From Flaviflexus salsibiostraticola (GTDB lineage: Bacteria > Actinomycetota > Actinomycetes > Actinomycetales > Actinomycetaceae), in assembly GCF_003952265.1 (NCBI RefSeq), contig NZ_CP034438.1, positions 1,054,001 through 1,118,000 on the forward strand: a DNA stretch of 64,000 bases, in the 5' to 3' direction. Positions 61,048-64,000 of the stretch are shown here, in pieces (position 1 is the first letter of the stretch; each line of letters begins with the position of its first letter). The notes under the pieces are model-generated. The model was not told the DNA's origin. It worked only from the letters and a program-made list of their open reading frames with translations, and made no database searches. The position numbers were made by a program, and so were the translations under genes.

Positions 61048-61665
61048 ATGGCCCGCACGATTCGAGACAGTGTGAGAACCGAGCTGGTGATCTCCCGCTC
61101 CCGGTTCATCACCCACCTCTCCCCTGCCGCGGGACCGGATGAGGCGCGGCAGGTCGTGGCGGAACTGAGGGCGGAGTTCCCCGATGCGAGGCATCACTGC
61201 TCCGCCTGGATCGTCCAAGTGCCCGGCGAGCAGGACCGCGAGCACTCCTCCGACGACGGAGAACCCTCCGGCACCGCGGGCCGCCCCATGCTCGACGTCC
61301 TTCGAGGTCACGGCCTCACCAACATCGCGGCCGTCGTTGTCCGCTACTTCGGCGGGATCCTGCTCGGCACCGGCGGCCTCGTGCGCGCCTACTCTGACTC
61401 TGTGGCCGGGGCGGTCGAGGCGGCCACGCTCTGGACCGTGGCGGAGGTTCCGCGCTGGGAGCTGTCCGCGCCGGTCGCCCTCGCGGGCCGGCTCGAGGCC
61501 GTGCTCCGCGCCGAGGGCTGGGACGTTGAGGCGGAGTGGGCTGCGGAGGTCACGCTGCGCGTGACGACCGCCGACCGCGCCCGTTTAGCCGAGATCGCCG
61601 CCTCTGAGCTGGGGCGCGATGTCGACCCCCGCCCGGCTGGCACTGTCCAGCATTTCTCTCGGTGA
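61048..61665 (+). CDS. YigZ/IMPACT family protein
   Basis: A 205-residue UPF0029-type protein: SRSRFITHLSPA, HHCSAWIVQ, and the signature DDGEPSGTAGRPMLDVLRG with NIAAVVVRYFGGILLGTGGLVRAYSDSV. The C-terminal ferredoxin-like domain (DUF1949 type) follows. The IMPACT fold is linked to translation and stress signalling in eukaryotes; the bacterial role is unclear. The ATG at 61048 sits 6 nt after TAGAAT, a clear leaderless pattern with no Shine-Dalgarno. Confidence 0.88.
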   Translation: MARTIRDSVRTELVISRSRFITHLSPAAGPDEARQVVAELRAEFPDARHHCSAWIVQVPGEQDREHSSDDGEPSGTAGRPMLDVLRGHGLTNIAAVVVRYFGGILLGTGGLVRAYSDSVAGAVEAATLWTVAEVPRWELSAPVALAGRLEAVLRAEGWDVEAEWAAEVTLRVTTADRARLAEIAASELGRDVDPRPAGTVQHFSR

Positions 61666-61751
61666 GTGAACGGACTTGCCGAGTGTCGTGGCTCATGAAA
61701 CGATGACACCAGACAGTTAGCTGAATCGTGAACTATCTTCGGGAGGCGAAT

Positions 61752-61805
61752 ATGGGCGCATCGCTCATCGTTCTTGTCTCCTGCGCCTGTCTGAGCTGTC
61801 TGTAG
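61752..61805 (+). CDS. Cysteine-rich leader peptide upstream of cysK-cysE
   Basis: A 17-codon frame, ATG to TAG, encoding [17 protein letters not shown] with Cys at 11, 13 and 16. It has a good ribosome site (GGGAGG 5 nt before the ATG), unusual for a random short frame. The TAG is the first element of a perfect hairpin. Clustered Cys codons ahead of cysteine-synthesis genes are what a cysteine-sensing attenuator needs, and Cys-codon leader frames controlling sulfur genes are known in mycobacteria. Function is inferred; the frame itself is read directly. Confidence 0.7.
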
Positions 61806-61846
61806 AGTGCCGGGCCCTAGGGTGCGCTCATGCACGCCCGGCACTC
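61805..61846 (+). promoter_or_regulatory. Attenuator-type hairpin after the Cys leader peptide
   Basis: GAGTGCCGGGC (61805-61815) pairs perfectly with GCCCGGCACTC (61836-61846). An inner GTGC/GCAC stem is possible. The first base is the last base of the leader stop codon, so a ribosome paused at the Cys codons or at the stop would prevent or allow pairing. No T run follows, so Rho- or translation-based control is more likely than an intrinsic terminator. Confidence 0.65.
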
Positions 61847-61894
61847 CCCCTGCATCTGCAGCCTCAATCATTCATCGCCTCCGAAGGAACAGTT

Positions 61895-62830
61895 ATGTCT
61901 CGAATCGCATCTGACGCCACCGCACTCATCGGCAACACCCCCCTCGTCCGCATCAACAAGCTCTTCCCGGGCGCCAGGGCCAATGTCCTGGCCAAGCTCG
62001 AGTTCTACAACCCGGCCAACTCGGTCAAGGACCGCATCGGCGTCGCCATCGTCGACGCGGCCGAAAAGTCCGGCGCGCTCAAGCCCGGCGGCACCATCGT
62101 TGAGGCCACCTCCGGCAACACCGGTATCGCCCTTGCCTTCGTCGGGGCAGCCCGGGGTTACACGGTCGTTCTCACGATGCCGTCCTCGATGTCGAAGGAG
62201 CGGCGCGCGCTGCTCCGCGCCTACGGCGCCGAGCTCGTTCTCACCGAGCCGTCCGAGGGCATGAGGGGCGCCGTCGAGAAGGCCGAGGAGATCGCCAAGG
62301 AGCGCGAGGGCGCTGTGCTCGCCTCGCAGTTTGCCAACGAGGCCAACCCCGCCATCCACGAGGCCACAACCGGCCCCGAGATCTGGGCCGACACGGACGG
62401 CGAGGTCGCGGCACTCGTCTCGGGCATTGGCACCGGCGGCACCATCACCGGCGCCGGCCGCTTCCTCCGCTCGAAGAACCCGGACGTCAAGCTCTTCGCC
62501 GTCGAGCCGGCCGAGTCCCCCCTCCTCTCCAAGGGCAAGGCCGGCCCGCACAAGATCCAGGGCATCGGCGCGAACTTCATCCCCGAGGTCCTCGACACCG
62601 AGCTCTACGACGAGGTCATCACCGTCCCGACTGAGGATGCCTTCACGTGGGCGCGTGCGGCTGCGACGAAGGAGGGCCTCCTCGTCGGCATCTCGTCCGG
62701 CGCCGCGCTCAAGGCCGCGGGAGAAATCGCGGATCGCGACGAGTTCGCGGGTCAGAACATCGTCGTCATCATCCCGTCCTTCGGCGAGCGCTACCTGTCG
62801 ACGCCGCTGTTCGAGGGCCTGGTGGACTGA
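61895..62830 (+). CDS. cysK: Cysteine synthase (O-acetylserine sulfhydrylase)
   Basis: A 311-residue PLP enzyme making cysteine from O-acetylserine and sulfide. The PLP lysine is Lys45 in [11 protein letters not shown], the substrate loop is [12 protein letters not shown], and the phosphate-binding [12 protein letters not shown] loop is intact. AAGGAACAGTT precedes the ATG at 61895. It is followed at once by cysE (TGA directly before ATG), and the two proteins normally form the cysteine synthase complex. Length fits CysK rather than cystathionine beta-synthase. Confidence 0.97.
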
Positions 62831-63412
62831 ATGATCTTCTCGCTGGGCGCATCCCTCACCACCCTTCTCAAGGAGGATCTTGAGGCGGCGCGCAGGCGTG
62901 ACCCCGCTGCACGGACCTCCCTTGAGGTTGCTCTCGCCTACCCGGGCGTGCACGCCCTGTGGGCACACCGCATCGCCCATGCCATGTGGACGAAGTCGGA
63001 CCTGCTCAAGCTGCCCGCCCGCCTGCTCTCGCAGGTGGCCCGGTCGATCACCGGCATCGAGATCCACCCCGGTGCGAAGCTCGGCCGCCGCATGTTCATC
63101 GACCACGGCATGGGAGTCGTCATCGGCGAGACCGCTGAGGTCGGCGAGGATGTCATGCTCTACCACGGCACGACGCTCGGCGGTGTCTCCCTCAGCAAGG
63201 GCAAGCGTCACCCGACCGTCGGCAACCGGGTGACGATCGGCGCCGGCGCGAAGGTCCTCGGCCCGATCACCCTGGGTGATGACAGCCAGATCGGTGCGAA
63301 TGCCGTCGTCATCCGCGACGTGCCCGCAGGGGTCACCGCCGTCGGCGTCCCAGCGAAGAATCGGTCGGTTCCCGTGCTCGAGCCGGCCATGGATCCAGCG
63401 ATCTGGATCTGA
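62831..63412 (+). CDS. cysE: Serine O-acetyltransferase
   Basis: A 193-residue acetyl-CoA:serine acetyltransferase, first step of cysteine synthesis. The left-handed beta-helix hexapeptide repeats run from [31 protein letters not shown] to about 170, with the catalytic His in IDHG and the acetyl-CoA region [16 protein letters not shown]. The short N-terminus is the EpsC-like form. The C-terminal Ile (AIWI) fits the tail that binds CysK. It begins at the base after the cysK stop. Confidence 0.96.
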
Positions 63413-63423
63413 CCGGATACGAC

Positions 63424-63450
63424 ATCGCCCCGCCTGACAGGCGGGGCGAT
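63424..63450. terminator. Terminator hairpin between cysE and rpiB
   Basis: ATCGCCCCGCCT and AGGCGGGGCGAT form a perfect 12-bp stem with a 3-nt loop, between convergent genes. Confidence 0.78.
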
Positions 63451-63490
63451 CGTCATTGTCTGGCCGACGGCAGATCACCGTCGGTTGGGG

Positions 63491-63934
63491 TCAGCCCTCG
63501 TACTCGGTGAGGAGGTCGATGCGGTCCTGGTGGCGCTGCTCGCCGGAGAACGGCTCCTCGAGGAAGGCGTCGACGAGTGCGAATGCCTCCTCCTGGGAGT
63601 GCTGGCGGGCGCCGATGGCGATGACGTTGGCGTTGTTGTGCTCGCGGCCGAGGCGGGCGGTCGCGTCCGACCACGCGAGGATCGCGCGGACGCCCTTCAC
63701 CTTGTTGGCCGCGATCTGCTCGCCGTTGCCGGAGCCGCCGATGACGACGCCGAGGGAGCCCTCGTCGGCGACAACGGCCTCCCCCGCTGCGAAGCAGAAC
63801 GGCGGATAGTGATCGAGCGCGTCGTAGTCGTGCGCGCCATGGTCGACCACCTCGTGGCCGGCCTCCTGCAGGTGCTTGACGAGAGCCTCTTTGAGCTCGA
63901 AGCCCGCATGGTCTGTACCGATGTGTATACGCAT
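63491..63934 (-). CDS. rpiB: Ribose-5-phosphate isomerase B
   Basis: A 147-residue RpiB/LacAB-family isomerase interconverting ribose-5-phosphate and ribulose-5-phosphate in the pentose phosphate pathway. MRIHIGTDHAGFELK is the start of the family signature, and GVVIGGSGNGEQIAANKVKGVRAIL is the anion-binding loop. Here the usual active-site Cys region reads GGSGNG, with Ser-Gly where many enzymes have Cys-G, as in mycobacterial-type RpiB. The ATG at 63934 is 7 nt after a TATGCT element; an ATG four codons earlier (63946) is an alternative. Confidence 0.93.
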   Translation of the reverse strand: MRIHIGTDHAGFELKEALVKHLQEAGHEVVDHGAHDYDALDHYPPFCFAAGEAVVADEGSLGVVIGGSGNGEQIAANKVKGVRAILAWSDATARLGREHNNANVIAIGARQHSQEEAFALVDAFLEEPFSGEQRHQDRIDLLTEYEG

Positions 63935-64000
63935 AGCTCCCAGCATAACCCGACCCGAATCGGTTCAGGTGCGACCACTGGTCCCCCTAGACTGGTCGAA

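Follow-up and report, generated by a model that had tools for sequence, protein, structure and literature searches.

A conserved cysteine-codon leader frame and hairpin ahead of cysK–cysE in Actinomycetaceae: a candidate ribosome-mediated attenuator

Introduction

The cysteine-synthesis genes of Flaviflexus salsibiostraticola are preceded by a short frame with a cluster of Cys codons at its end and by a hairpin that begins at its stop codon. The locus raises the question of whether this leader senses cysteine and, if so, how it would act on the genes downstream. In the window (the whole stretch of DNA analysed, 64 kb, to which all positions refer), cysK (61895–62830, + strand) encodes a cysteine synthase A (NCBIfam TIGR01139; 441.5 bits against a cut-off of 350.95) and is abutted by cysE (62831–63412, + strand), which encodes a serine O-acetyltransferase (TIGR01172; 238.6 bits against 210.65). 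A gene of the YigZ/IMPACT family (61048–61665; TIGR00257, 157.6 bits, slightly below the cut-off of 167.95) lies directly upstream of the leader. At the other end, a perfect 12 bp hairpin without a U-tract (63424–63450) stands between the convergent genes cysE and rpiB and is probably the terminator of the operon.

Architecture of the leader

Direct reading of the sequence gives a leader frame of 17 codons on the + strand (61752–61805), with an ATG at 61752, a TAG stop codon at 61803–61805 and a Shine–Dalgarno site, GGGAGG, at 61741–61746. Three Cys codons fall within its last seven: TGC at 61782–61784, TGT at 61788–61790 and TGT at 61797–61799, the last of which lies 5 nt 5' of a perfect 11 bp stem. 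The 5' arm of this outer stem (GAGTGCCGGGC, 61805–61815) starts on the final base of the TAG and pairs with the 3' arm (GCCCGGCACTC, 61836–61846). Enclosed by the two arms are a 6 nt bulge, CCTAGG (61816–61821), with a second in-frame TAG at 61818–61820, and an inner hairpin (61822–61835) with a 4 bp GTGC/GCAC stem (61822–61825 with 61832–61835). The outer arms are defined by sequence, alignment and covariation, the bulge by sequence and alignment, and the inner hairpin by alignment and covariation, all on the + strand. The original prediction had described the frame, its GGGAGG site, the three Cys codons in its last seven and a stop touching a perfect 11 bp stem, and each of these is confirmed. 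The 48 bases between the end of the hairpin (61846) and the cysK start comprise a stretch without a U-tract in the window (61847–61882), C-rich across relatives, and a Shine–Dalgarno-like site for cysK, GAAGGA (61883–61888).

The combination is singular in the window. Among its 299 frames of 6–45 codons preceded by a Shine–Dalgarno site (both strands), three have at least two Cys codons in the last seven, and the leader frame alone has at least three or combines at least two with a stem of at least 10 bp at the stop. A weak, possible promoter (TTGCCG, 17 nt, AACGAT; 61676–61704, + strand) was picked out by eye here and in relatives from the genus; a consensus scan of 61400–64000 returned no promoter. 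A terminator scan of the same interval, with a loop limit of 8, returned two sites, about the number expected by chance (1.0), and the leader hairpin was not among them. One of its hits, a seven-pair hairpin with a T-rich tail over the first leader codons (61752–61768), is probably fortuitous, its stem being missing by eye from locus L002.

A second frame, starting at 61830 and running across the cysK start, had also been put forward as a possible part of the switch. The frame exists (61830–62264, 144 codons), but its ATG sits in the hairpin loop and is lost or displaced among the nearest relatives: L002 and L003 lack it, and in L004 and L005 an ATG stands four columns downstream in the alignment and in a different frame. 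A part in the switch was rejected on this ground, and the frame is taken as an open stretch that overlaps cysK out of frame.

Conservation among relatives

Matching of upstream records (L009 to zg-1166, L013 to Ancrocorticia populi) places the relatives in the Actinomycetaceae; all counts that follow refer to species genomes and should not be taken as numbers of independent events. cysK was present in all six genomes sampled from the genus and was found in 117 of 121 from the family (E 1e-90), 116 of the 117 upstream regions being used. Loss of the Cys codons or the stem in close relatives had been named in advance as the observation that would speak against an attenuator; the leader frame, its Cys codons and its stem are kept in all six genus genomes and in many genera.

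In a first survey, which looked for a frame preceded by a Shine–Dalgarno-like site (here part of the search criterion) with at least two Cys codons within the last nine, such frames occur in 59 of the 91 family regions and in 22 of 102 others; after base shuffling the mean was 2.65 of 91. A stricter test required a Cys frame plus a stem of at least nine pairs beginning 3–5 nt past the last Cys codon. It was passed by 66 of 116 family cysK upstream regions and by 17 of 134 others; ten shuffled replicates averaged 0.0 (family) and 0.1 (others), and the reverse strand gave 0 of 250. Judged by these sequence controls, the arrangement of Cys frame and stem is not a product of chance. When the strict test was run for other amino acids, Arg passed in 18 family and three other regions and Leu in 14 and six, and no further residue exceeded three in either group; we read the Arg and Leu passes as riding along, since both residues are common beside the last Cys of the same frames.

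The strict count underestimates the family, because L015, L029, L048 and L068 fail it although a Cys codon and a stem in register can be read in each. Two of the 17 passes classed as other also belong to the family (L129, Trueperella; L259, genome G019). Passes from outside the family include Cellulomonas, Actinotalea and Pengzhenrongella, and in Isoptericola and similar loci (L183, L192, L211, L215, L218) the layout is visible by eye but the strict stem score fails. Within the set of 91 family loci the layout occurs in 57, and 23 of 34 family genera have it in at least one locus. It is missing from some genera, such as g18 (none of six sampled: L032–L036, L041); no Rfam regulator was found in the two g18 loci scanned (L032 and L035), and an Rfam scan of 20 regions lacking the frame gave one tRNA only. 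The order cysK then cysE is found in 81 of 82 eligible loci with the layout and also in 156 of 172 without it.

Register and the UGU rule

In a looser survey of 81 loci, the best stem starts exactly 5 nt past the last Cys codon in 55, 2–4 nt past it in 16 and elsewhere in ten; a start at 5 nt occurs in 18 of 405 shuffles. In ten family loci of this set no stop codon stands at the stem base: nine of them read through the 5' arm to the bulge stop at +18 and one (L086) to +9, and in all ten the stem still begins 3–5 nt past the last Cys codon. As the register is kept when the stop is displaced, the distance that is held is the one from Cys codon to stem and not only that from stop to stem. A second in-frame stop at +18 is also present in 11 of 46 family loci that have the usual stop.

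The last Cys codon is also restricted in its identity. It is TGT in 82 of the 83 strict loci; the single TGC (L237, frame MARECC) is a doubtful call. Elsewhere in these frames Cys is encoded by 146 TGC and 60 TGT (60 of 206), and the 33 coding-like frames of the window use 104 TGC and 21 TGT (21 of 125). Among loci whose GC content exceeds 62%, all 44 end their Cys codons with TGT, compared with 21 TGT among the 123 other Cys codons. By position, TGT accounts for 22 of 45 Cys codons two before the last, 17 of 45 three before and one of 16 just before, and the rule is sharp at the last Cys codon only. All 46 tRNA genes found in the genome were read, and the sole tRNA-Cys has the anticodon GCA, so that UGC pairs with it in the standard way and UGU through wobble. 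Wobble decoding of UGU would be expected to be slower than decoding of UGC.

An RNA-folding reason for the rule was rejected: replacing the last UGU with UGC in silico changes the predicted folding little, with a mean shift of −0.32 kcal/mol, although the change is greater than 0.5 in 40 of 83 loci. The base after the last Cys codon is C in 87%, and the +1 frame after the last UGU (here from 61798) runs without a stop as far as the cysK start in 42 of 83 loci compared with 24.7 expected from shuffles (the +2 frame in 34 of 83 compared with 27.4), which is suggestive at most of a programmed +1 slip at UGU-C.

Covariation and distribution of the hairpin

A consensus structure of 16 pairs was derived from 45 family sequences, 14 of the 59 family loci having been dropped by eye beforehand for divergent hairpins, a choice that leans towards agreement. 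In this alignment 91.9% of cells are paired and 12 of the 16 pairs change on both sides. The covariation score is 0.377 compared with 0.226 in shuffles, with none of 500 shuffles as high and no more than 0.146 when the structure is slid; the weakest measure is the number of further pair types, a count reached by 49 of 500 shuffles. Pairing of 93.6% in the family and 97.1% in the others (shuffles, 74.1% and 88.9%) is partly high because the loci had been pre-selected for a stem. The 6–7 nt bulge and the inner stem are kept in much of the family. In loci from outside the family, a different apical part sits on the same base helix (GAGCGC...GCGCTC), and the register and the UGU codon are likewise kept. 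One A of the bulge (here 61816–61821) is well kept across family loci.

A covariance model built on this hairpin (R1) matches 57 of 121 family genomes, once in each. Of these matches, 55 lie on the same strand 31–395 nt upstream of cysK and one precedes a cysK that the first search had missed (the G019 locus, L259); the match in G039 is false, falling in a coding region and read as antisense to nusB. In an order-wide sample the model matches ten of 149 genomes, all within the family. When it was run on 46 loci that had not been used to build it, the model returned 16 matches with E values of up to 1. In seven of these, all before cysK (L015, L029, L040, L048, L062, L064, L068), a TGT abuts model position 1 and belongs to a short open frame (7/7), and the frames of L048 and L029 contain no other Cys codon. 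The remaining matches are opposite-strand repeats of two of the seven, five loci with a known Cys frame and two weak ones off the cysK start (L074, L007). The leader itself matches no Rfam model, whether of the T-box or of another cis-regulator: against Rfam 15 the window gave nothing at the gathering score, and the only two matches at E up to 10 are weak and both on the opposite strand.

Proposed mechanism

Comparison of the sequences establishes the frame, its Cys codons, the stem with its covariation, the near-fixed register, the UGU rule and the place before cysK. From these we infer translation of the leader frame, stalling, its direction (a stall turning the genes on), termination and the type of terminator. 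The conserved layout is very probably a switch that turns cysK–cysE on at cysteine shortage, in line with the cysteine-sensing attenuator of the original prediction, which gains support from the conserved frame, the Cys codons and the covarying stem. Our preferred reading, which we hold with moderate confidence, is that the leader controls cysK–cysE by ribosome-mediated attenuation in response to cysteine, using one hairpin. With ample Cys-tRNA, the leader ribosome would reach the stop codon and leave, the hairpin would close behind RNA polymerase and transcription would end within the leader, by intrinsic termination where a U-tract is present and elsewhere by a hairpin without a U-tract or with the help of NusG or Rho. 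With Cys-tRNA short, the ribosome would pause at the Cys codons, chiefly at the wobble-read last UGU, where it would cover roughly the first five bases of the stem; with the stem base blocked, polymerase would continue into cysK–cysE.

This proposal was examined with an occlusion model in which the ribosome is assumed to cover 12 nt past the first A-site base. Over 72 loci, the mean predicted folding energy of the hairpin region is −27.2 kcal/mol when free, −15.7 with a ribosome at the last Cys codon, −26.1 with one at the previous Cys codon and −11.4 with one at the stop. Since stalls at upstream Cys codons leave the hairpin intact, the presence of several Cys codons is not fully explained by a single-hairpin attenuator.

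A U-tract terminator as a general rule was rejected: tails contain 20.6% U compared with 19.4%, and an earlier count found U-tracts in six of 72 loci compared with 16 of 399 control windows. In a set of 90 loci, seven of them placed by hand, a U-run follows the stem in eight, two of these runs (L038, L005) lying at least 3 nt off the stem. By GC content they divide into five of 16 loci below 50% (controls 46 of 435, uncorrected p 0.025), three of 28 at 50–62% and none of 46 above 62%; tests in the other GC bins gave p values of 0.60, 0.095 and 1. In L025, L080, L062 and L263, from different genera, the stem passes directly into a U-run, like a canonical terminator. Nine perfect stems of at least 10 bp with short loops occur in the window, including the one between cysE and rpiB, and none is followed by five T in eight bases. 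According to the available text of one review, terminators without a U-tail are the predominant type in mycobacteria, although it also cites a contrary title (PMC12288462), and the accessible part of one survey places Actinobacteria among the groups with the fewest predicted U-tract terminators (PMC2965389). We tentatively propose, as a plausible but less than probable refinement, that a wobble-read UGU about five bases before the hairpin, with mostly UGC among the Cys codons further upstream, serves as a synonymous-codon sensor and would park the ribosome right at the hairpin base when cysteine is short; the single hairpin would terminate with the aid of a U-tract in a few lineages of lower GC content and without it in those of high GC content.

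Alternative explanations

The leader 3' of the hairpin contains 39% C and 20% G, with C exceeding G in 65 of 71 loci, and this bias is stronger in cysK leaders with the frame: C minus G is 0.181 with it (57 loci) and 0.058 without (32 loci; p 4e-5) in the family, and 0.257 (15) and 0.087 (80; p 6e-8) outside. Such a C-rich, G-poor leader equally fits a role for Rho and favours a reading of opposite logic, in which the hairpin is the ON state: stalls at upstream Cys codons would let it form, and a ribosome at the stop would melt the outer stem and expose C-rich RNA to Rho, ending transcription. The modelled ribosomes behave in this way, the one at the Cys codon before the last sparing the hairpin and the one at the stop melting it, and the ten family loci whose frame extends into the 5' arm, in nine cases as far as +18 and in one to +9, also agree. 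We nevertheless consider the opposite logic unlikely, because it predicts neither the near-fixed distance nor the UGU rule of the last Cys codon and because in L025, L080, L062 and L263 the hairpin and U-run would terminate in the ON state; in addition, mycobacterial Rho is reported, in the available text of a review, to recognise purine-rich sequences (PMC12288462).

A stalled ribosome could instead unmask the cysK ribosome site, as in translation attenuation of the mycobacterial polycysteine type, and the nearest tested cysteine system of Actinomycetota is described as translational in the accessible part of a later paper (PMC13236596). Against this, the predicted openness of the cysK site is 0.554 free and 0.544 stalled over 71 loci (p 0.053), rising by more than 0.1 in one locus and falling in three, and a median of 77 nt separates the hairpin end from cysK, which together make the idea improbable. 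The leader frame, its regulatory codons and the stop beside the stem would also suit a classical trp-type attenuator with two hairpins and an antiterminator. Complements of either arm, upstream or downstream, are however no more frequent than in shuffles (mean z 0.24, 0.25 and −0.05 over 71 loci), and we regard such a device as very improbable. One short alternative stem, UAGAGC:GCUCUA, between the stop region and the bulge, has a covariation score of 0.283 compared with 0.231 in shuffles (none of 500 as high), but it shares columns with the long stem, from which the score may be borrowed, and it was rejected since its pairing hardly exceeds that of shuffles (84.8% of cells compared with 82.7%). 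The bulge and inner stem kept in much of the family could, finally, point to a protein- or metabolite-binding element to which the frame is secondary; beyond the family it is the apical part that changes while the base helix, register and UGU persist, and no Rfam family matches, so that we give this explanation scarcely any weight.

Relation to known systems

The preferred single-hairpin attenuator shares with amino-acid attenuators in general a short frame with codons for the pathway product ahead of biosynthetic genes. It departs from the trp type in that no exclusive antiterminator is found for either arm in 71 loci, one short alternative stem being weakly supported, and in that a hairpin with a U-tract is absent from the window and from all 46 loci above 62% GC. 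In pyrBI-type attenuators the ribosome directly blocks the terminator hairpin and no antiterminator is needed, as proposed here; they differ in what is sensed, which is UTP, through coupling to polymerase pausing, instead of the stalling of a ribosome on a codon for an amino acid.

In 2020, Canestrari and co-workers reportedly linked mycobacterial polycysteine ORFs, short and leaderless, to cysteine-responsive attenuation. The available text of later work reports a cysteine response of these frames (PMC13236596, PMC9094748), which resemble ours in joining a Cys-codon frame to cysteine-responsive attenuation; as described there they are translational, whereas the cysK site has no predicted masking here, its predicted openness being unchanged by a stall. 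They are also called leaderless; our frame is preceded by a Shine–Dalgarno site. Cys-codon leaders before cys genes are already known. The accessible part of Seliverstov et al. (2005; PMC1262725) predicts leader peptides with Cys codons ahead of the cys operons of Mycobacterium and Propionibacterium acnes and ahead of cbs in Bifidobacterium longum. The present leader belongs with these, being a short frame from Actinomycetota with a run of Cys codons near its stop and cysteine genes downstream. According to that part of the paper, no conserved hairpin able to act as a terminator was found, and Rho was proposed as a weak prediction; here, by contrast, a covarying hairpin is held at a near-fixed distance from a UGU codon upstream of cysK–cysE. 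The uORFC-8-2 motif before cysS of Rhodobacterales (PMC8632094), as far as the available text describes it, is likewise a conserved structured leader with Cys codons and proposed ribosome-mediated attenuation, but has two tandem Cys codons inside its first stem, mostly UGC, a terminal U-run and another gene and phylum. The ilvB-II motif of Corynebacterium and the ilvB1 attenuator of M. tuberculosis likewise have a conserved leader frame with a hairpin near the stop and, in the accessible parts of the papers cited, differ in using branched-chain codons and an antiterminator with a U-tract terminator (PMC10272879, PMC13236596); ilvB-II occurs, as here, once per genome (PMC10272879). Among the titles and beginnings of abstracts listed from the open-licence literature on cysK leaders, cysteine attenuators and RNA motifs in these groups, we found no account of the present element, and the register hairpin and the UGU rule appear to be new.

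Regulatory selection acting on synonymous codons would find a clean natural example in the UGU rule. Whether a U-tract is needed is disputed, judging from the opposite titles of Czyz 2014 and Ahmad 2020 as cited in the available text of PMC12288462, and the relatives, in some of which this hairpin is followed by a U-tract and in others not, offer a comparative test of whether mycobacterial and actinobacterial RNA polymerases need one. For the Actinomycetaceae and some of their neighbours (Cellulomonas, Actinotalea, Pengzhenrongella), the leader would represent a conserved and testable cysteine switch.
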